Source: a virus. Taken from it: 25,811 bases of DNA. A program made the translations under genes and the position numbers. The notes beneath the pieces are model-generated. The model was not told the DNA's origin and did not search any database. It saw nothing but the letters and a program-made list of their open reading frames with translations. The DNA is taken from positions 1 to 25,811 of the IMG/VR virus record IMGVR_UViG_3300025467_000067. One strand, written 5' to 3'. Below, in pieces: positions 2,438 through 24,679 of the stretch (the stretch's first letter is position 1; the number at the start of each line of letters is the position of its first letter).

Positions 2438-3858
2438 TGCCAATTGACATCATTTCTAGATCGCTGAAAGACATTGGCGCTTTGGAAGCTGGTGAAACGC
2501 CTACACCAGAAGCGGCGCAAGATGCGTTTGACCTTCTCAATGACATGATCGATCAATGGTCGAATGAGTCAATGATGGTGTATTACAAGAATGAAATCAT
2601 CTTCCCGATTGTTCCAGGGCAGACACAATACACAATTGGCCCAACTGGTGAAATTGGCGCTGGTTTCACGGGCTACATAAGCGGCAACACATTGACTGTT
2701 GCTAATACCAACGTCAACAACTTTGCTGGTACAGGCTCAATCAATAGCTCAACGCTGACCATTACGTCTGTGTCAAGCGGTGCTTTGCAGGTTGGCAGCA
2801 TCATTACTGGCGCTTCAATTCCTAGCGGCACATCTATTTTGTCGTTCGGTACAGGTAACGGCGGTGTAGGCACTTACACGATTTCTCAGTCGCTGTTTAT
2901 CAACAACGAATCAATCACAGCTAACGCACCGATCATTACTTCTGGTGCTATTTCTAATGGGCAGTATCTGACCACGACATACGGCGTGAACATGAACCTG
3001 TCTCAAGGAACGCAGATTGTGGCCTTTAATACAGGCGCTGGCGGAAACATTAACGAAGCTGGGACGTACACCCTTAACAACTATGTTACAACGCCTAATC
3101 CTGCGTTTACTGGGTCTATTAGCGGCACTACCCTTACTGTTAGTGCTGTCTCTGCTGGTTATTTGGGTGTCGGTTGTGTGGTTAGCGGAACAGGTGTTAC
3201 TTCTGGCACGAAAATTACTGCGGTTTTAACTGGTTCTGGCGGTGTTGGTATTTATACGGTATCGGCATCACAAACGGTTAGCAGCACATCAATGACGGGG
3301 ACTGTTACGCCTTTCCCGATTACTGCTTACTATCAGCGGCCTTTGAGCATTTCTAGCTGCTTTGTGCGTATCAATACAAACAGCAACGGCATCCCTGTTC
3401 AAAACGGCGGCTTGGACTATCCAGTAGCTGTGTTGTCGCTGGAAGAATACGAAATGATCGGTCTGAAAACGCTAAATGGCCCTTGGCCCAAGGCGCTTTA
3501 CTATCAGCCAACAGAGCTATTGGGTAACATTTTTGTGTGGCCTAACCCTTCTCAGGGTGAAATGCACTTGTTTACCGACAACATTTTTAGCCGTTACTCA
3601 AGCGTTAACGACACCATTCAGCTACCGCAAGGCTACACAAACGCTTTGCGCTGGAACTTGGCTTATTTCTTAATGCCTATGTACGGCAAAGCCTCGCCTG
3701 TGCAGATTTCGATGATTCAGAAAAACGCACAAGAAGCTAAAGCGACTGTTAAGCGCACCAACATGAAACCGCCTCAAGTTGCTCGATATGCTGATGCTTT
3801 GCTGGTTGGCCGCCAAAAGGATGCTGGCTGGATTCTGTCTGGAGGGTTCTTTAGATGA
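2437..3858 (+). CDS. P22 gp4-like head-to-tail factor with inserted beta repeats
   Basis: The N-terminus ([20 protein letters not shown], then a [16 protein letters not shown] helix) is characteristic of the P22 gp4-type packaged-DNA stabilisation/tail accessory family, which binds under the portal ring after packaging. The family is usually around 160-200 residues; this product is 473 residues because about 215 residues of beta-type repeats (2665-3300) are inserted after the VPGQTQYTI segment. The family sequence resumes at [20 protein letters not shown] and continues to the C-terminus. The start at 2437 gives TAATG coupling; an in-frame ATG at 2431 would add two residues. The stop overlaps the next start (ATGA). 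The assignment is firm from the N-terminus and gene order. Confidence 0.85.
2665..3300 (+). repeat. Inserted beta-repeat block in the gp4-like protein
   Basis: In-frame repeats of a beta-type module with the consensus opening [12 protein letters not shown], a middle G-x-x-x-V-G-x-x-I-x-G-x-x-x-x-x-G-T and an ending G-T-G[10 protein letters not shown]. The clearest copies are at about 2731-2919 and 3106-3300; more divergent copies occupy 2665-2730 and 2920-3105. The same module recurs in the gp10-like gene. DNA copies are diverged, so this is an old protein-level repeat and not a recent DNA duplication. Confidence 0.8.
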
Positions 3859-6143
3859 GTGACTTTGGCTTTGTTGGGCCAAGTTACGAAGCCCCATCTA
3901 TTTATCAAGAGTCGCAAGAATGTATCAACTGGCGACCTGAGATTGACCCGCTTAAACAGGCGGGAAACCGTGGGGTTGTTGCTCTTTATCCGACACCAGG
4001 ATTAACAACATTAGCAAATCTTAACGCTGCTGCTGTTCGTGGGATGCACACTATTTCTGGTGGGCAGCAACTGATTGTTGTTTGCGGCGCTTATGTTTAT
4101 TCGCTAACAGCCAATTTAGTGCCTTCTGTTATTGGCATTTTGAGCACTTCAACAGGTCAAGTTCAGATCAGCGATAACGGCGTTAACGTTTACATTGTTG
4201 ATGGTGCTAATCGTTATGTTTGGTACATTTCTAGCCCTTCTGGTGCTATCTTTACAGGCTCAATTAGCGGTACAACTTTAACCGTTACAAGTGTTAATAC
4301 TGGAACAATTGCAATCAATCAAGCCTTAACAGGAATTGGGATTGCGTCTGAAACAGTCATTACTGCATTAGGCACAGGAACTGGTGGAACTGGTACATAC
4401 ACCATAAACACCTCTCAAACTGTTGCAGCGGAATTGATGACTTCTTCAACGGTTGGCGCTGTTATTACAGGGGCAATCTTTGGAACGACACTTTTTGTTC
4501 AATCGGTAACAAGTGGAACAATACACCTTGGTCAAACGATTCAAGGAACTGGCGTTACTGCAAATACGATTGTTACTGCATTTGGTAGCGGGTCTGGCGG
4601 TGTTGGCACTTACACCGTAAGCACATCACAAAATGCACCTGCCTTTAGCGTGTCTTTTATTGGGCAAATTTCTGGAACTTTGCTAACGCCAACTGTAATT
4701 AACAGCGGCACTCTTGCAGTAAACCAATACGTTTATGGCGCTGGTGTAACTCCTGGAACACAAATTACTTCAGCTAACACAGCTTTGATGGCAAGTTGCA
4801 GTATTAGCGCAGGTGTTTTAACTGTTGGCACTTTGAATTTTGGTTCAATTTCTGTTGGACAGGCTTTGTTTAACAGTAGTGACCCAAATTTTCCTTCTGG
4901 TATGATTATTACCGCTAACATTAGCGGAAGTGGCAGCGGCAGCACTTGGCGAATAAACAATACGACTTATTCAACTGCTGGAATAACAATAAATGCCGCA
5001 AGTTATGGTTTAAATAATTCCATGACAGTATCGTCTGAGCAGATGTATTCTTCTACATCGGCTGGTATCACAGACTATGCTTTAAATTTCAGCATATTGC
5101 CTAGCACAGATGGTGCTTTTACTGGCGGTTCTTCTGTGGATATTGTTGATAACTATTTTGTTTACAACAATCCTGGAACACAGCAATGGGGCGCATCTGA
5201 TCTGTTGTCGCCTATTTCTAGCTCAACTTCTTACGCTTTTAAAGACGCTGCACCAGATAAGCTAGTTGCTTTGATTGCTGACCATCGCGAAGTTTATTTG
5301 ATGGGTGAAGTGTCCTCGGAAGTGTGGACAGACGTAGGTGCTATTCCTTTTCCTTTCCAGCGTATTCCAGGCACTTCTACTCAACACGGTATTGCAGCGC
5401 CTCAGTCGTTATATCGTTTAGGAAATTCGTTTGCTTATGTGTCTCGCAACAACCGTGGGCAAGCACAGATCATGCAAATGAATGGGTATATCCCAACTCG
5501 CATATCTACTCATGCTGTTGAGAATACGCTTATCAATCAAACAATTACTGATGCGATTGCGTTTACTTACCAGCTAGAGGGCCACGAAGTTTATGTCGTG
5601 ACTTTCCCTAGCATTGGCGACTATGGTTTGACATGGGCCTATGATTCAACAACTCAAATGTGGCACAAATGGCTATATTGGGATGGCAACGAATACACAC
5701 GGCATCGTGCAAATTGCTCTGCACTTTTTCAGGGCATGGTGCTTGTTGGCGACTATTCCAACGGTAAGATTTACGAACTGGATTCGACAAATTTCACAGA
5801 TGACGGTCAAACTATACGCAGATTGCGTAGAACTCCGCATTTGACAACTGATTTGCAACGTCAATACTTTGATGAATTGCAGATTCAGTTTCAACCTGGA
5901 ACGGGCTTGCCAACAGGTCAAGGTAACGACCCTCAAGCGATGTTACGTTGGTCTAATGATGGCGGCTCTACATGGTCAAGGGAGTATTGGGTAACGATTG
6001 GTAAAATTGGTCGTTACAAAAATCGTGCTATTTGGCGGCGTTTGGGATGGTCACGGGATAGGGTCTTTGAAGTTGCGTTTACTGACCCTGTTAACAGCGT
6101 GGTTGTATCTGCTAACTTAAAAGCATCGGTAGGGGAAAACTAA
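3855..6143 (+). CDS. P22 gp10-like tail accessory factor with inserted beta repeats
   Basis: The N-terminus ([20 protein letters not shown], then [21 protein letters not shown] and [10 protein letters not shown]) is the signature of P22 gp10-type packaged-DNA stabilisation proteins, which form the tail hub below gp4. P22 gp10 is about 470 residues; this one is 762, the extra length coming from about 260 residues of repeats at roughly residues 133-388. The hub sequence resumes near [20 protein letters not shown] and contains [19 protein letters not shown] and [20 protein letters not shown], both typical of the family. Overlaps with neighbours are 4 bases upstream (ATGA) and 1 base downstream (TAATG). 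It is expected to act with the gp4-like protein to close the portal after DNA packaging. Confidence 0.87.
4251..5018 (+). repeat. Inserted beta-repeat block in the gp10-like protein
   Basis: Four successive in-frame copies of the module also found in the gp4-like gene. They lie at about 4251-4445 ([18 protein letters not shown] opening), 4464-4655 ([18 protein letters not shown]), 4656-4790 ([18 protein letters not shown]) and 4791-5018 ([18 protein letters not shown]). The first two also share the closing G-T-G-G-x-G-T-Y-T-x-x-T-S-Q. The third is shortened and the fourth is divergent. Confidence 0.8.
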
Positions 6144-14268: not shown

Positions 14269-14731
14269 AGAAATCGAAGTTCGTATCTGGGCTATTGTGG
14301 TGCTTGCCATCACGGGCATTTTGTTCTTTATCGTTATTTGCTTGCTTTATTCGGTCACGTTTGTTGTCCAGCCTATCAAGGCTATGGCTCCAATCGATCA
14401 GGCTTACACCAAGATGCTGAACGACATTGTTTTGCTATTGGTAGGTGGTATTGGTGGGATTGTTGGTAAGCGGGTCGCTGGTGGGGTTGCAGGGACGCTT
14501 GCAGGGGTTAAACAGGCTACGAATACGCCAGCACCTTGCTATGGTCAGCCCATGATGCAAATGGGTATGCCGCAGCAGAGCCAAGCATTTGGTGCTATGC
14601 CCATGTTTGTGAATCCTGTGTTTGATGAAGAATGGAGAGCGCCTCCTCCCCCTACTACACAGCCAGATCACTTACACCCAGAGCGAGAAGAAATAGCGGC
14701 TGAACGTGCTGCTGCAAAGGATGCAGAATGA
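14225..14731 (+). CDS. Holin-like two-helix membrane protein
   Basis: A TTG at 14225 is the best start because GGAG lies seven bases upstream (14214-14217), giving 168 residues. The protein opens MNLLSNNPEHKLTAEEIEVR. It has one membrane helix (WAIVVLAITGILFFIVICLL) and a second hydrophobic segment (DIVLLLVGGIGGIVGKRVAG), joined by a short loop with APIDQAY. The C-terminal region is hydrophilic, with Met/Gln/Pro-rich and Glu-rich parts. Two helices plus position before Rz and the endolysin support a holin role. It overlaps the lipoprotein gene by 44 bases and Rz by 4 bases (ATGA). A pore-forming activity is inferred and not evident from a specific motif. Confidence 0.65.
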   Translation: MNLLSNNPEHKLTAEEIEVRIWAIVVLAITGILFFIVICLLYSVTFVVQPIKAMAPIDQAYTKMLNDIVLLLVGGIGGIVGKRVAGGVAGTLAGVKQATNTPAPCYGQPMMQMGMPQQSQAFGAMPMFVNPVFDEEWRAPPPPTTQPDHLHPEREEIAAERAAAKDAE

Positions 14732-15309
14732 CGTGGTTTCTTACATTCTTTAGCGACTTGTTTTACATCCTTGCTGTGCTGGCGCTGATTGCTGGCGTGG
14801 GTTTGTATGGTTTGAGCTACTTTGCTAAGTTGCTTCCTGTTATTGCTACCTACGCCCTTTTAATGCAGATTGGCGGGGTTGTTTTGGCCTTGGGTGGTGG
14901 GTATTACGTTGCTGACCATAAGGGCTATGAGCGCCGTGTGGCAGAGGATAAGGCCGAAATTGAGCGGTTAAATGCCGAAGCAAGAGCTAAAGAGGAAGAA
15001 CTTGCTCAGACGCTAAAAGATAAGACAGCAGCACTTAGAAAGGCATCCAATGCTATTAAGCAAAAGCAAGTTAATATCGTTCAGCGCATTGATTCTGGCG
15101 AGTTGCGCTTCCCCTCCGCCTGTGGTGTTCAAACCAGTTCAGATGCCGGAACTGCCGGAGGAAATCCAAAAGATGGAGCCGAATCTGAGCGACAGGCTCT
15201 TAAAGATATTGCAGCCATTGCCGCAGACGGCGACCTCGCCATCACCCGCCTCAACGCCTGTATCGACCAATACCAAGCAGTAAAGGAAAAGGTCAATGTT
15301 AAACAGTAG
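14728..15309 (+). CDS. Rz: Rz-like inner-membrane spanin subunit
   Basis: The 193-residue product has hydrophobic N-terminal segments (FYILAVLALIAGVGLYGL and ALLMQIGGVVLALGGGYYVA), followed by a periplasmic-type coiled coil (EIERLNAEARAKEEELAQ) and a C-terminal region with GELRFPSACGVQ and ITRLNACIDQYQAVKEK. The last block is characteristic of Rz-like lysis proteins. The spanin bridges inner and outer membrane and fuses them in the last lysis step. Two hydrophobic segments instead of the usual single anchor are notable. The partner Rz1 is nested inside it in the +1 frame at 15050-15283. The endolysin start lies 14 bases before its stop. Confidence 0.85.
   Translation: MTWFLTFFSDLFYILAVLALIAGVGLYGLSYFAKLLPVIATYALLMQIGGVVLALGGGYYVADHKGYERRVAEDKAEIERLNAEARAKEEELAQTLKDKTAALRKASNAIKQKQVNIVQRIDSGELRFPSACGVQTSSDAGTAGGNPKDGAESERQALKDIAAIAADGDLAITRLNACIDQYQAVKEKVNVKQ
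15050..15283 (+). CDS. Rz1: Rz1-like outer-membrane spanin lipoprotein, nested in Rz
   Basis: The 77-residue product begins MLLSKSKLISFSALILASC, a lipoprotein signal with lipobox L-A-S-C and lipidated Cys at residue 19. The mature part is Pro-rich (ASPPPVVFKPVQMPELPEE, and PSPASTPVSTNTKQ at the end), as in Rz1 proteins. It lies wholly within the Rz gene in another frame, the classical embedded Rz/Rz1 arrangement. AAGG seven bases before the ATG can serve as ribosome binding site. It is expected to bind the C-terminus of Rz in the periplasm. Confidence 0.87.
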   Translation: MLLSKSKLISFSALILASCASPPPVVFKPVQMPELPEEIQKMEPNLSDRLLKILQPLPQTATSPSPASTPVSTNTKQ

Positions 15310-15925: not shown

Positions 15926-16129
15926 ATGGCTTACACAATTACTGGAAAAGGCAAAGAATCTCCCAAGGGTCACTATGTTGTGGAGAAAAGCCATCAGCAC
16001 CCATTGGAACAAAAAGTAGCCCGTCTGGAGCAAAAGCTGGACAAGCATATGCACTTGCCAATGGAAAAAGCGCATCACCCTGGTAACGACCAGAGCCAAG
16101 CGCCTTTGCCTAATATGAGAAAATACTAA
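15926..16129 (+). CDS. Small charged protein of unknown function
   Basis: AAAGGA sits eight bases before the ATG. The 67-residue product is hydrophilic and His/Lys-rich, with a short coiled-coil-like middle (LEQKVARLEQKLDKHMHL) and an ending QAPLPNMRKY. No membrane segment or known motif is seen. It closes the plus-strand late block and its last four bases overlap the end of the convergent minus-strand operon. Small proteins of this kind are common at the end of phage lysis blocks; function unknown. Confidence 0.65.
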   Translation: MAYTITGKGKESPKGHYVVEKSHQHPLEQKVARLEQKLDKHMHLPMEKAHHPGNDQSQAPLPNMRKY

Positions 16130-16383
16130 GCGTTTAACCGCTGAATCGTTACGTTTAGGGCATCTAGCTCATTCATTTTGCGGATGAGCCAAGCCCTTTT
16201 CTGCCCATGCCAGCCCATCATTGACCCACGGTGGCAGTCTGGGCATAGAGCGATGCAGGTGTATTGAAGCCCTTGCTCTATGTGGTGGGCTTCACTTGGC
16301 CCAGGCTGGTCACACACGCTGCACGACAATTCCTTTACTCTTGCTAAATAGGCTCGTTCCAGCTTGTTGAGTTTGTTGTTCAT
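16126..16383 (-). CDS. HNH/Ref-like Cys-His nuclease-type protein
   Basis: The 85-residue product carries a Cys-His cluster: LSCSVCDQPGPSEAHHIEQG then LCPDCHRGSMMGWHGQKRAW. The order C-x2-C, A-H-H-I and C-x2-C-H is that of HNH-type folds such as the C-terminal domain of Ref and NinG-like phage recombination nucleases. It may nick or cut DNA during recombination, but the short length and lack of an extended DNA-binding part leave activity open. It is the last gene of the minus-strand operon, three bases after the preceding stop, with no strong Shine-Dalgarno of its own, so coupling is likely. Confidence 0.7.
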   Translation of the reverse strand: MNNKLNKLERAYLARVKELSCSVCDQPGPSEAHHIEQGLQYTCIALCPDCHRGSMMGWHGQKRAWLIRKMNELDALNVTIQRLNA

Positions 16384-16386
16384 TGT

Positions 16387-16650
16387 TTAGGCTAATTCCC
16401 ACTCACGTTCTTCACGGTTTGATTTTGATTTGACGGTTTTGCCTGTCAGCCTGACCAGCCCAAGTTGCATCATTTCTTTGAGCCTTCTAGCGACTTGATT
16501 GGGGTCAAGCATTGATCGGTCTGCTATACCATCTTTGCCTTGTGGCCCACTAAGCACCAGCACCGCTAGGATTTGGTCGTAGTGCTTTGCTTTGAAATCA
16601 ACTTTGTTAGCAGCTAATTTGCTGGTAATTGGGTCATTGTTGCGGTACAT
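16387..16650 (-). CDS. Winged-helix-like DNA-binding protein
   Basis: The ATG at 16650 is preceded on the minus strand by AAAGGACTAACG, a good ribosome binding site at the right distance, so longer forms reaching upstream are not used. The 87-residue product (MYRNNDPITSKLAANKVDFK start) contains a helix-turn-helix-like segment (SMLDPNQVARRLKEMMQLGL), then a probable wing (VRLTGKTVKSKSNREEREWE). It overlaps the preceding winged-helix gene by 17 bases. The product may be a regulator or a replication accessory protein. The DNA-binding fold is inferred from the pattern. Confidence 0.7.
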   Translation of the reverse strand: MYRNNDPITSKLAANKVDFKAKHYDQILAVLVLSGPQGKDGIADRSMLDPNQVARRLKEMMQLGLVRLTGKTVKSKSNREEREWELA

Positions 16651-16885
16651 CGTTAGTCCTTTTTGGGTGTGGGCAATCATCTGGAACATCAGCAACGCAC
16701 CAGATAGCCGTGTATTGACCATTTGTTGGGCCTTCCCATCGGTCTATGTAGGCGTCTGGCATGGATTTAAGCGATTTGCGAATAACCTCTGGTAAAGCCT
16801 TGATATAAATAGCTATTGATTCTGCTGACAGCCCATCTTGTTGGGTTTTCATTAAGTCTCTGATGTTGTGGTGGTGTGGACGCAT
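16634..16885 (-). CDS. Second winged-helix-like protein
   Basis: The ATG at 16885 gives 83 residues beginning MRPHHHNIRDLMKTQQDGLS, then AESIAIYIKALPEVIRKSLK (a helix-turn-helix-like pattern) and DAYIDRWEGPTNGQYTAIWC, which could form a wing. The end is PDDCPHPKRT plus a short tail. An in-frame TTG eight codons upstream is less likely. It follows a 28-residue gene by four bases and overlaps the next winged-helix gene. Two adjacent small DNA-binding proteins suggest a regulatory pair. Function unknown. Confidence 0.65.
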   Translation of the reverse strand: MRPHHHNIRDLMKTQQDGLSAESIAIYIKALPEVIRKSLKSMPDAYIDRWEGPTNGQYTAIWCVADVPDDCPHPKRTNDVPQQ

Positions 16886-16889
16886 TAAG

Positions 16890-16976
16890 TTACCAAGGTG
16901 CTTCTTCAAAGTTATCGGGGTTAAATTTAGGCTCGCCAGGCTTGTCGGGCAGCGGTGTAAGAGGGAAAGGCCACAT
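16890..16976 (-). CDS. 28-residue Pro-rich microprotein
   Basis: The minus strand reads TAATG at 16978-16974, joining the stop of the preceding gene to this ATG. The product is MWPFPLTPLPDKPGEPKFNP followed by DNFEEAPW, ending in TAA four bases before the next gene. Six of 28 residues are Pro and the protein is acidic overall. Tight coupling on both sides is the main evidence that it is translated; no function can be proposed. Confidence 0.5.
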   Translation of the reverse strand: MWPFPLTPLPDKPGEPKFNPDNFEEAPW

Positions 16977-17182
16977 TAGTCATACATCCTGTCAATGATT
17001 GCTTCATGCGCTTCTTCACAAATCACAGATACCAGTTCTTCATAAATGGTTTCCATGTCGGAATCATTCAACAATTCATTGACGTTGACACCTTTGTAAA
17101 AGACATTGACAACTTCAACATCATCCCATGAGGGTTCATATTCAACCTCAATATCCGCATTTTTAAATCCGATTGTTTTCAT
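16976..17182 (-). CDS. Small acidic protein
   Basis: The start at 17182 overlaps the stop of the 31-residue membrane protein gene in ATGA, giving 68 residues. The product opens MKTIGFKNADIEVEYEPSWD and continues with VNVFYKGVNVNELLND and a strongly acidic C-terminal helix (TIYEELVSVICEEAHEAIID). It is net negative, with no membrane segment. Small acidic phage proteins often act by mimicking DNA or binding host enzymes, but no motif supports such a role here. Confidence 0.62.
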   Translation of the reverse strand: MKTIGFKNADIEVEYEPSWDDVEVVNVFYKGVNVNELLNDSDMETIYEELVSVICEEAHEAIIDRMYD

Positions 17183-17274
17183 ACAAGTGCTACCGCTAAA
17201 AACCAAGCCAACAAACAAGCAATGACAATAGCCAATGCGTAATCTAAGAATGTTTCAAAATGGGAGTTCATCAT
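17179..17274 (-). CDS. 31-residue membrane microprotein
   Basis: The product is MMNSHFETFLDYA followed by a single hydrophobic helix LAIVIACLLAWFLAVALV that runs to the C-terminus. AAAGG lies just upstream of the two ATGs, it overlaps the end of the previous gene by 20 bases in another frame, and it is joined to the next gene by ATGA. A hydrophobic tail of this quality in a tightly packed operon is unlikely to be chance. It may associate with the inner membrane to modulate host or lysis functions; that is inference. Confidence 0.62.
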   Translation of the reverse strand: MMNSHFETFLDYALAIVIACLLAWFLAVALV

Positions 17275-17467
17275 TTGCCTTTGTTAATTGGGTTTGCGAG
17301 GAGCCATTTGTCACCAAGGTATCGAATAGAAGCGACCCAAGACCGAATGTTGTGTCGGACAATATGACGTTCGATATACGGTCGATCAAAGTGTTCTCGA
17401 ACCCTTTTGAGTAAAGAAGTTGGCATAGTTGATCTAGCTCCATTTGTTTAGTTGATATGTCTTGCAT
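17255..17467 (-). CDS. Small protein of unknown function
   Basis: The ATG at 17467 has AGGA six bases upstream on the minus strand (AGGAACAACC before the ATG), so the 70-residue form is chosen over longer ones. The product opens MQDISTKQMELDQLCQLLYS and has helical character with KGFENTLIDRISNVILSD in the middle, then a polar C-terminus ending in ELPF. No known domain is evident. A hairpin with a T-tract precedes its ribosome binding site (see 17476-17498). Confidence 0.6.
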   Translation of the reverse strand: MQDISTKQMELDQLCQLLYSKGFENTLIDRISNVILSDTTFGLGSLLFDTLVTNGSSQTQLTKANDELPF

Positions 17468-17475
17468 GGTTGTTC

Positions 17476-17498
17476 CTAAAAGGGCCGAGGCCCTGTTT
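17476..17498 (-). terminator. Hairpin with T-tract between first two minus-strand genes
   Basis: On the minus strand the sequence AGGGCCTCGGCCCT is an inverted repeat followed by TTTTAGGA. It folds as a 5-bp G+C stem with a four-base loop, flanked by A and T runs on both sides, so it could act as a weak terminator in either direction. The T-run leads straight into the ribosome binding site of the next gene, so it may instead be a partial attenuator or an mRNA processing/stability hairpin. Confidence 0.5.
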
Positions 17499-17645
17499 TT
17501 AGATAAATTGATGAGCCTTAAGAAATTCAACTTCTTCTGGCGCTGCCAAACACAAAGCCATCATGTGTTTGACTAAATAAACTTCCAACTTCTTGCGATT
17601 GGTTGGGCTAGGAACTTTGCGATAAGTGGCGATCAATTTAGACAT
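17499..17645 (-). CDS. 48-residue first gene of the minus-strand operon
   Basis: AAGGAA lies five bases before the ATG. The product is MSKLIATYRKVPSPTNRKKL, then EVYLVKHMMALCLAAPEEVE and a short FLKAHQFI ending. It is basic at the N-terminus, then helical and partly hydrophobic. No family is recognised. It is the first gene after the minus-strand promoter at 17690-17717, so it is likely an immediate-early product. Confidence 0.68.
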   Translation of the reverse strand: MSKLIATYRKVPSPTNRKKLEVYLVKHMMALCLAAPEEVEFLKAHQFI

Positions 17646-17656
17646 TTTGCTTCCTT

Positions 17657-17679
17657 AAAAGACCCCGAACCGTTCAGGG
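17657..17679 (-). promoter_or_regulatory. 5'-terminal mRNA hairpin with T-tract (minus-strand leader)
   Basis: The minus strand reads CCCTGAACGGTTCGGGG then TCTTTT then AAGGAA. CCCTGAA pairs with TTCGGGG (7 bp including one G-T) around a 3-base loop, 17 bases in all. It begins about ten bases after the promoter -10 box, so it would form at or very near the mRNA 5' end. The arrangement is repeated on the plus strand at 20451-20474. Confidence 0.6.
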
Positions 17680-17689
17680 CATGGGTGCT

Positions 17690-17717
17690 ATTGTAGAGCA
17701 AAATAGACAGACAACAA
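17690..17717 (-). promoter_or_regulatory. Promoter for the minus-strand operon
   Basis: On the minus strand TTGTTG (17717-17712) and TACAAT (17695-17690) are separated by 16 bases, a good sigma-70 type pair. The predicted start is near 17683, just ahead of the leader hairpin. No other promoter is evident between here and the divergent Cro-like gene on its minus-strand side. Confidence 0.6.
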
Positions 17718-17734
17718 CAACTATTTAAAATATT

Positions 17735-17762
17735 TTGTAGGGACAAACCCTAATGCTATATG
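17735..17762 (+). promoter_or_regulatory. Candidate promoter and operator before the Cro-like gene
   Basis: TTGTAG (17735-17740) and TATATG (17757-17762) are 16 bases apart, with TG one base before the -10 box (extended -10). An inverted repeat TAGGG-ACAAA-CCCTA (17738-17752) lies in the spacer and could be an operator for the Cro-like protein or a prophage-type repressor encoded elsewhere. A second, smaller inverted repeat AGTG-ATA-CACT is at 17771-17781. Confidence 0.45.
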
Positions 17763-17787: not shown

Positions 17788-17973
17788 ATGACCAAACAAG
17801 AAGCCATTGAAAAAGCTGGAAGCCAAGCTGAGTTAGCCCGTATCTTGGGTGTGACTAGAGGGGCTGTTTTCCTTTGGAAGAACATTCCTCCTCTCCGCAT
17901 CTATCAACTAAAAGAACTACGTCCTTACTGGTTTCCAAAGCATGAAATTGAACGCCTTTACGATGAAGCCTGA
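17788..17973 (+). CDS. Cro-like helix-turn-helix repressor
   Basis: The 61-residue product is a Cro/YdaS-type protein: KQEAIEKAGSQAELARILGV, then TRGAVFLWKNIPPLRIYQL, where Q-A-E-L-A-R-I-L and T-R-G-A-V-F-L-W form the helix-turn-helix. The C-terminal end, RPYWFPKHEI, resembles the closing strand of such proteins. It lies divergent to the minus-strand operon and next to a spacer inverted repeat, so it probably controls the early switch. AAAGG abuts the ATG directly, with no spacing for normal Shine-Dalgarno use, hence leaderless translation is possible. No CI-like repressor or integrase is visible in the window. Confidence 0.82.
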   Translation: MTKQEAIEKAGSQAELARILGVTRGAVFLWKNIPPLRIYQLKELRPYWFPKHEIERLYDEA

Positions 17974-18253: not shown

Positions 18254-18270
18254 TTTTTGAAACACGGCTA

Positions 18271-18342
18271 GGTCTGAAGTCATGAGCAGACCGAAAAGGG
18301 TTACACCTTCCCCTGCCGCAGTTTCATTTCAAAGGTGCGGCA
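18271..18342 (+). ncRNA. Structured 5' leader of the replication gene
   Basis: Two strong stems are visible: GGTCTG/CAGACC at 18271-18292 (6 bp, ten-base loop) and TGCCGCA/TGCGGCA at 18314-18342 (7 bp, 15-base loop). Between them AGGG (18297-18300) can pair with CCCT (18311-18314), and CCTT (18306-18309) can pair with AAGG (18332-18335) inside the loop of the last stem, giving an H-type pseudoknot. The Shine-Dalgarno AAAAGG (18344-18349) follows directly. I do not match it to a named riboswitch. It could be a cis-acting control or antitermination RNA. Confidence 0.5.
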
Positions 18343-20435: not shown

Positions 20436-20441
20436 TACAAT
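20436..20441 (+). promoter_or_regulatory. Candidate -10 box for the Erf operon
   Basis: TACAAT at 20436-20441 sits between the previous stop and the next gene, with only a weak -35 (GTTAAA, about 17 bases upstream). It stands nine bases before a 17-base hairpin, as in the minus-strand operon promoter. Confidence 0.5.
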
Positions 20442-20450
20442 ACTCCCATG

Positions 20451-20474
20451 CCCCAAATTTCTTGGGGTCTTTTT
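20451..20474 (+). terminator. Hairpin plus T-tract ahead of the Erf operon
   Basis: CCCCAA pairs with TTGGGG around a five-base loop (20451-20467), followed by TCTTTTT. The structure is a classical intrinsic terminator, and it would stop transcription from the rusA side. The T-tract runs straight into AGGAG, the ribosome binding site of the next gene. It lies at the predicted 5' end of the RNA from the -10 box at 20436. Confidence 0.7.
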
Positions 20475-20484
20475 AGGAGCTATT

Positions 20485-23476: not shown

Positions 23477-24679
23477 ATGCAAATTATTGACCGCCCCATA
23501 GAGGAGTTGATTCCTTACGTTAACAACTCTCGCAAGCACTCTGATGAGCAAGTCGCCCAGATAGCGGCAAGCATCAAAGAGTTTGGCTGGACAAACCCTA
23601 TCTTGGTAGATGGGGAAAACGGCATCATAGCGGGGCATGGCCGTTTAATGGCTGCCCGTAAGCTCAAGATGGACAAAGTGCCGACAATTGAGTTGGCACA
23701 CCTTACTGATACGCAGCGCAAGGCGCTCATCATTGCCGACAATAAGTTGGCGTTGAACGCTGATTGGGACAATGAACTGCTGACTATTGAGCTCAACGAA
23801 TTGTTAGCCGATGGTTTTGCTTTGGAAGTGCTTGGTTTTAACCCAGACGAATTAAGCGCCTTGCTTGAGCCGGAAGTGGTGGAAGGGCTGACAGACGAGG
23901 ATGCCGTTCCAGAAGTGCCTGAAGAGCCTAAAACACGGCTTGGTGACATATATCAGCTAGGAAACCATCGATTGATGTGTGGGGATTCATGCAGTACAAA
24001 TGATATGGAAAAGCTATGTGATGGACAGCTTGTGGATATGTGGCTAACAGACCCTCCATATAACGTAGCTTACGAAGGCGGCACAAAAGAAAAATTAACT
24101 ATTAAAAACGACAGCATGGCCGACGATCAATTTCGTCAATTTTTACGAGATGCTTATGTCACGGCAGATCTTGTAATGAAACCAGGTGCTGTTTTTTATA
24201 TTTGGCATGCTGATTCAGAAGGCTATAACTTTCGCGGTGCTGCTCAAGATGCTGGCTGGAAAGTTCGTCAATGTTTAATTTGGAAAAAATCCTCATTGGT
24301 AATGGGTCGTCAAGATTATCATTGGAGACATGAACCATGTTTATATGGTTGGAAAGAAGGCGCAAGTCATCTTTGGGCGGCTGACAGAAAACAAACAACT
24401 ATTTTAGAGTTTGAAAAACCTAGTCGTAATGGTGATCATCCAACTATGAAGCCTGTTTCGTTATTTGAATATCAAATGCTTAATAACACTAAAGGCGGTG
24501 ACATTGTTTTGGATTCATTTGGTGGTAGCGGAACAACTATGTTGGCAGCTGAAAAAAATGGTCGTTATGCCAGATTGATGGAATTAGACCCTAAATACTG
24601 CGATGTGATCGTAAAGCGTTGGGAAGATTTCACAGGTAAAAAAGCCGTTCTTTTGACACAAACTGAAGAAGTTGCATAA
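23477..24679 (+). CDS. ParB-like/DNA methyltransferase fusion
   Basis: The 400-residue product has an N-terminal ParB/Srx-type nuclease-like domain, residues about 1-95 (DRPIEELIPYVNNSRKHSDE, ENGIIAGHGRLMAARKL), and a C-terminal beta-class amino-methyltransferase. The latter has D-P-P-Y at residues 192-195 (catalytic motif IV), HPTMKP at 331-336 and DSFGGSGTTMLAAE at 346-359 (S-adenosylmethionine-binding motif I). The order IV before I marks beta-class N6-adenine or N4-cytosine enzymes. No cognate restriction gene adjoins it, so it may protect phage DNA from host restriction or regulate genes. The nearest upstream AAGG is 15 bases away, unusually far. Confidence 0.88.
   Translation: MQIIDRPIEELIPYVNNSRKHSDEQVAQIAASIKEFGWTNPILVDGENGIIAGHGRLMAARKLKMDKVPTIELAHLTDTQRKALIIADNKLALNADWDNELLTIELNELLADGFALEVLGFNPDELSALLEPEVVEGLTDEDAVPEVPEEPKTRLGDIYQLGNHRLMCGDSCSTNDMEKLCDGQLVDMWLTDPPYNVAYEGGTKEKLTIKNDSMADDQFRQFLRDAYVTADLVMKPGAVFYIWHADSEGYNFRGAAQDAGWKVRQCLIWKKSSLVMGRQDYHWRHEPCLYGWKEGASHLWAADRKQTTILEFEKPSRNGDHPTMKPVSLFEYQMLNNTKGGDIVLDSFGGSGTTMLAAEKNGRYARLMELDPKYCDVIVKRWEDFTGKKAVLLTQTEEVA

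Follow-up and report, generated by a model that had tools for sequence, protein, structure and literature searches.

The put sites of phage HK022, structured RNAs that head early phage transcripts, have an architecture of two consecutive stem-loops. In lambda and P22, the leftward (PL) operon is a unit of small, coupled genes that diverges from cro. Overprinting, too, is familiar from phage gene pairs such as Rz/Rz1, in which the shorter gene lies wholly within another frame and both are under selection. In bacteria, 5' stem-loops protect mRNAs from RNase cleavage (review PMC7509114). The locus described here is a minus-strand operon in the virus record IMGVR_UViG_3300025467_000067. All 25,811 nt of this record, which is probably a fragment, are referred to as the window. 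In our view, this is probably an early leftward operon of the PL type from a P22-like, probably virulent freshwater phage, headed by a leader cassette and containing an overprinted gene. Taken by itself, the operon is of an ordinary early phage type, though its gene families are unusually small and undescribed. What is surprising is the portable leader together with the overprinted gene; the functions given below for individual proteins are inferred.

The operon contains eight minus-strand open reading frames (ORFs) of 28-87 aa within 16126-17645, and the larger genes around it are on the plus strand. The features of its start region, together with the second leader copy further on, are as follows:

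17712..17717, minus strand: -35-like hexamer TTGTTG of the putative leftward promoter, 16 nt from the -10
17690..17695, minus strand: -10 hexamer TACAAT of the same promoter, 5/6 to TATAAT
17652..17683, minus strand: leader CATGCC-stem-GGTCTTTTAAGGA of the leftward operon (5' hairpin, U run and Shine-Dalgarno sequence), recognized by pattern and covariation
20447-20478, plus strand: second leader copy, before the ERF/YqaJ operon, with a -10 TACAAT at 20436-20441
17788..17973, plus strand: cro, P22_Cro / YdaS type, which opens the divergent rightward operon (match to PF14549 at E 6.5e-10, above the curated cut-off)
17738..17752, no strand assigned: inverted repeat TAGGG-N5-CCCTA between the divergent promoters, a candidate Cro operator with a related repeat in relatives

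Reading leftward, the -35 is followed by the -10 and, six bases further on, by CATGCC-stem-loop-GGTCTTTTAAGGA and then the start codon. The leader of the ERF operon has the same arrangement with a different stem. These two copies in the window compare with 0.00 expected by chance. In the fetched loci the pattern was matched 248 times forward and 0 times reversed; some of these loci had been chosen by the leader pattern itself, and 58 distinct copies were found before that scan. A scan of viral contigs placed the leader in at least 119 viral stretches. A -10-like hexamer (at least 4/6) is found 4-8 nt upstream of CATG in all 100 distinct elements, 70 of them at 5/6 or 6/6. The search pattern fixed the outer CC/GG (the first two pairs), TCT and AGGA, leaving the pairs from the third inward as independent evidence: at the third, C-G, G-C, U-A or A-U occurs, with 98% paired against 61% when shuffled (0/1000). 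Aligned subsets likewise show covariation in the stem. In 300 Burkholderiales genomes, matches were at chance level (3, vs 4 for the reversed control), and a host origin of the leader was rejected on that ground. No Rfam family was found at either leader (17652-17683 and 20447-20478), even when E values up to 1 were allowed, and open-access full text yielded no published description of such a leader, which is a weak negative.

The leader precedes 67 unrelated ORF families, and the 167 combinations of element and ORF have a median ORF length of 70 aa (165/167 at least 25 aa). In the relatives of the window, it is kept while the first gene switches among 48-aa, 62-aa, 56-aa and 70-aa genes. The ERF operon and, in other phages, dozens of unrelated small genes have this same leader in front of them, and for that reason we call it portable; it would serve as a portable expression cassette. 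A related structure occurs inside the operon, where an intercistronic hairpin separates the 48-aa and 70-aa genes:

17482..17493, minus strand: intercistronic hairpin GGGCC-TC-GGCCC followed by TTTTAGGA

In L016 and L481, AGCC-TTCG-GGCT takes the place of this hairpin and the TTTT-AGGA tail is unchanged. Relatives with an added gene have an intercistronic hairpin behind that gene, again with the same tail and a different stem. On one contig, L443, three leaders lie within ~1.1 kb on one strand (2447-3544), as if each small gene had its own start cassette. Small early phage genes are mostly dark, and short ORFs are often overlooked in metagenomes; the start cassette provides a sequence handle for such genes and their first codons in metagenomic data, as well as a concrete RNA for testing.

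What would the leader do? Judged by the spacing from the -10, the leftward mRNA would begin within a few bases of the hairpin, at or next to CATG. Computed folds give a hairpin with the Shine-Dalgarno sequence downstream, the position of the 5' end being set by the -10 alone. This would resemble ompA-type 5' stem-loops, with a hairpin at the presumed extreme 5' end and then a single-stranded ribosome site. Unlike these, the leader is phage-specific, fused to a promoter, bounded by the constant flanks CATG and TCTTTT-AGGA, and found before many unrelated genes. It is probably mRNA-stabilizing or translation-promoting: a 5'-terminal stem-loop with an exposed ribosome site would protect the transcript and promote translation of the first gene.

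The hairpin might instead be an attenuator, that is, an intrinsic terminator located ~25 nt into the transcript that a phage or host factor would relieve. In favor of this, a GC-rich stem is followed directly by TCTTTT in most of the 100 distinct elements, and the leader folds at about -10 kcal/mol. However, close relatives have lost the U run (TCTAAGGAG) but still have the hairpin, -10 and Shine-Dalgarno sequence; in the nearest relatives, what is left of the T run is TCTAAGG or TCTTAAGG, with the other parts kept; and many elements have a stem of just 3-7 bp. As near relatives show this erosion of the U run, the terminator reading is not favored, and we regard attenuation as distinctly unlikely. 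A cis-acting antitermination element of the HK022 put or boxB/boxA nut type, allowing read-through of downstream terminators, is somewhat less improbable, although still a minority possibility. Like put and nut sites, the leader opens two early-type transcripts; UCUUUUA together with the hairpin is reminiscent of a hairpin/boxA pair, and there are terminator-like hairpins downstream. On the other hand, each element has one short hairpin rather than two stem-loops, the leader also precedes single small genes (even the three within about 1.1 kb on L443), its U-rich part is missing in close relatives, and no antiterminator gene was found. A broader proposal, which we hold only tentatively, is that the cassette is a previously undescribed cis-acting phage RNA regulator, read by a phage or host factor and acting through antitermination at the RNA level or through selective translation while the host is being shut off. 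Virulent phages could then use it to turn on whatever small gene lies behind it, and insertion at this point would give them new early genes. If the leader has a specific reader, this would be a new form of early-gene control for virulent phages without a CI/N circuit.

Transcription of the operon would start from the sigma-70-like promoter at 17690-17717, divergent from cro, and binding of Cro between the two promoters would probably tune both. Of 54 distinct cro upstream regions, 20 have a repeat related to TAGGG-N5-CCCTA, in most cases at a distance of 49-54 nt from cro. (Other relatives have different palindromes at this position.) The comparison with PL is made because of the position of the operon, diverging from cro, and the recombination cargo of its relatives. 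In more distant relatives (L055-L083), the leftward operon carries Erf and YqaJ in the interval from cro to the 87-aa gene. Diverging from cro in the same layout, the leftward operon of the complete circular podovirus MW202484 holds Erf and SSB. Other operons have extra small genes between the 31-aa and 87-aa genes, including DUF3310 and helix-turn-helix (HTH) proteins, a sign of cargo turnover. There are also differences from lambda and P22: the ERF/YqaJ genes of the window are on the rightward side, and its operon has no CI gene beside cro, no integrase found and no recognized N gene. No gene of any kind, and thus no CI gene, lies between 17645 and 17788, and neither an integrase nor a Peptidase_S24 (CI-type) protein was found in 26 related records, most of them fragments. 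Because there is no room for CI and these proteins are missing from the 26 records, the phages are probably virulent, with Cro but without a repressor; a temperate phage was rejected for the same lack of integrase and Peptidase_S24.

Bacterial genomes are almost devoid of these operon families. The sole match in a chromosomal collection was a 3.7-kb contig of a Burkholderiales metagenome-assembled genome (MAG), which makes Burkholderiales a lead only as to the host. A bacterial home for the 83-aa and 87-aa families was likewise rejected, with none or one small MAG contig found (the first scan used one exact peptide pattern).

The second surprise is a pair of nested frames following the 48-aa gene:

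17255..17467, minus strand: 70-aa overprinted frame enclosing the whole 51-aa gene, with its ATG at 17467
17271..17426, minus strand: 51-aa gene, which is the older frame of the pair; family in at least 546 viral loci

It is highly probable, from the pattern of sequence change, that this region is dual coding. The ATG of the 70-aa frame is conserved and has a ribosome site, 41 nt upstream of the 51-aa start (44 nt in L048, an in-frame 3-nt difference); its AGGA-6 is better than the GGAG-11 of the 51-aa gene. Within the 51-aa family, the second frame is open in 26/26 members of the window's clade and closed in 44/44 members outside it. L048, which is only 65% identical, is also open in the 70-aa frame, since the 3-nt length difference preserves it. 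Counted by parsimony, changes at positions 1:2:3 of the 51-aa codons come to 32:18:30 for the clade, compared to 3:0:27 and 8:9:36 in the control clades (clade vs controls, Fisher p = 6e-6). Since the first position of an inner-gene codon coincides with the third position in the outer gene, equal freedom at both marks two constrained frames. A single-frame 51-aa gene under purifying selection is excluded by the substitution ratio, which was reached in 0-3/400 simulated runs for omega up to 0.5.

The 70-aa gene would thus have been born around an older 51-aa gene. This differs from Rz/Rz1-type pairs in that the inner gene is the conserved, old one, and the enclosing frame the clade-specific, new one. 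The nested pair offers a case of phage gene birth by overprinting for which related phages without the 70-aa frame are natural controls. (The window holds one more nested pair, of a kind already known: an Rz1-like lipoprotein frame with a lipobox-like LASC at 15050-15283, plus strand, within the Rz-like spanin gene at 14728-15309.)

Several points weigh against the composite reading of a PL-type operon with leader cassette and overprint. The outer part of the leader stem was fixed by the search itself, as mentioned. Most related records, like the window, are fragments, which limits the claim of virulence. No N-like antiterminator or repressor was recognized, so that the analogy with PL is one of layout; the early timing, the start site and the effect of the leader are deduced from sequence. 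For the nested pair, simulations that constrain the 51-aa frame alone leave the second frame open in all tips in 8-13% of cases, and openness as such was rejected as proof of overprinting once this was seen. Simulations at omega 1 (relaxed selection) often match the position ratio, so that a nearly relaxed 51-aa gene fits too. The 70-aa frame would then be no gene at all, with the 51-aa gene relaxed in this clade and the second frame open by chance. We find this unlikely, given the conserved ATG with its ribosome site, the closed frame in every member outside the clade, and two nested frames that are both free of stops over 26 sequences and about 80 changes.

The remaining genes of the leftward operon are, from its start:

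17499..17645, minus strand: 48-aa gene, first of the operon, family in at least 153 viral loci
17179..17274, minus strand: 31-aa single-pass membrane microprotein (30 aa from the second ATG), hydrophobicity read from sequence
16976..17182, minus strand: 68-aa acidic protein, rare, with one closely similar locus besides near-identical copies
16890..16976, minus strand: 28-aa microprotein WPFP...PKFNPDNFEEAP, family in at least 143 viral loci
16634..16885, minus strand: 83-aa winged-helix protein with the motif MPDAYIDRWE..WCVV.PP..CP.P, family in at least 54 viral loci
16387..16650, minus strand: 87-aa probable winged-helix protein, phrog_1123, family in at least 113 viral loci
16126..16383, minus strand: 85-aa Cys/His HNH-like protein, phrog_1588, distant Ref relative

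Neighboring genes overlap (by 4, 4, 1 and 17 nt) or lie only 3-4 nt apart, the sole exception being the 72 nt between the 48-aa and 51-aa genes; we propose that the downstream cistrons are translated by coupling. All nine frames, including the 70-aa frame, have between 7 and 121 distinct relatives apiece. Their pairwise differences pile up at codon position 3 (1:2:3 = 479:482:1422 in the 28-aa gene, for instance, or 1039:602:1839 in the 48-aa gene), and there are hardly any internal stops. Because of these three properties, the nine frames are taken as genes rather than degenerate sequence. The 31-aa microprotein, for example, has 31 distinct relatives, 59-97% identical, with the same position-3 bias. 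The gene order is retained across many viral contigs. Thus, the tightly coupled set of eight small ORFs, opposite to the other genes, that the earlier note had described is borne out by the ORF map, and degenerate frames in close relatives were looked for and not found. The count of eight overlooked the 70-aa frame, and the operon begins further upstream, at 17652-17717, than had been supposed. The suggestion that this co-directional operon is probably early is strengthened by its divergence from a P22_Cro/YdaS-type gene, by ERF/YqaJ in the operon of relatives and by the leader shared with the ERF operon.

For the 83-aa protein, a winged helix is supported by an AlphaFold2 model (mean predicted local distance difference test (pLDDT) score of 81.6) with the order H-H-H-E-E, three helices plus a beta wing; Foldseek matches the model to winged helices with a probability of about 1, but E of about 0.01. 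The sequence has a signature around DAYIDRWE and CP.P, in which D44, Y46, I47, D48, R49 and W50 are fully invariant. The 87-aa protein, also given as winged-helix-like in the earlier note, matches phrog_1123 (unknown function) at 1.3e-8. Several winged HTH (wHTH) profile families were matched at E 0.01-0.1, every one under the cut-off, and the assignment is accordingly weaker for this protein. Both are probable regulators.

The 85-aa protein shares with Ref (PF16786; P1 Ref, PDB 3PLW) the Cys/His HNH pattern CxxC, AHH, LCxxCH, WHG, and C21, C24, H33, H34, C47, C50, H51 and H59 are invariant in 17 sequences. It reaches proteins annotated as RecA-dependent nucleases adjoining NinB. Some of its relatives, which adjoin NinB and endonuclease genes, pass the Pfam cut-off (L144 with 49.0 bits, L089 with 39.5 bits). 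The window protein itself has no match to PF16786 at the family cut-off of 26.9 bits, and, at 85 aa, it has no counterpart to the long, basic arm at the N terminus of P1 Ref. Membership in Ref was therefore rejected, and the HNH/Ref-like label holds only in the sense of a distant relative with all HNH-type Cys and His residues. Its model has a mean pLDDT of 83.6, and the best structural matches are Cap5 HNH effectors, with a probability of at most 0.21. PDB sequence searches with HNH and wHTH profiles gave nothing significant. The protein may work like Ref, as a probable recombination nuclease.

Could these small proteins serve instead to take over the host? The earlier note had read the operon as a host-takeover or anti-defense island, with small products that inhibit host enzymes or block defense after entry. 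The genes are indeed small, of early type and variable, at a hotspot with cargo turnover among relatives. Moreover, early expression and inhibition of host growth have recently been shown for a RecA-dependent HNH protein from a Staphylococcus phage (PMC12817073), and the Ref-like protein could act likewise. However, no operon member matches a takeover or anti-defense family in Pfam, PHROGs, NCBIfam or PADLOC, the last of which gave two marginal matches only. The relatives' version of the operon has recombination genes, and its recognizable cargo otherwise is of the DUF3310 and HTH type only. The core 83-, 87- and 85-aa genes are conserved like phage house-keeping genes, unlike those caught in an arms race. 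Because a lambda/P22-type early operon accounts for the layout, a takeover role is not needed, and we think it rather unlikely. As a PL-type operon, the locus would provide products for DNA transactions and accessory functions, the small accessory proteins presumably being those that vary among relatives.

Other observations concern the surroundings of the operon and its gene content. The lysis side meets the operon tail-to-tail, its last gene (85 aa) overlapping the convergent plus-strand gene at 15926-16129 by 4 bp, while the Cro gene stands back-to-back with the operon start. The window's structural genes are P22-like, and its other genes include an Rz-like spanin, an endolysin, a replication/primosomal protein, RusA, Erf and a YqaJ-type exonuclease. 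In L112-L118 and L128, which are otherwise different phages, the 28-aa gene directly follows the 83-aa gene, the reverse of the order in the window. A 30-aa ORF at 16310-16402 (minus strand) appears to be a remnant, with an internal deletion of ~41 codons, of a 71-aa gene that is intact between the 87-aa and 85-aa genes in L016, L020 and L025. At 23477-24679 (plus strand), a DNA methyltransferase is fused with a ParB-like domain. The cro operon contains a possible structured RNA at 18261-18335 (plus strand), which scores 31.6 bits against Rfam int-alpA (RF02996; gathering threshold 35.8); on the leader-bearing contig L443, a match to RF02996 at 4260-4332 is above gathering.

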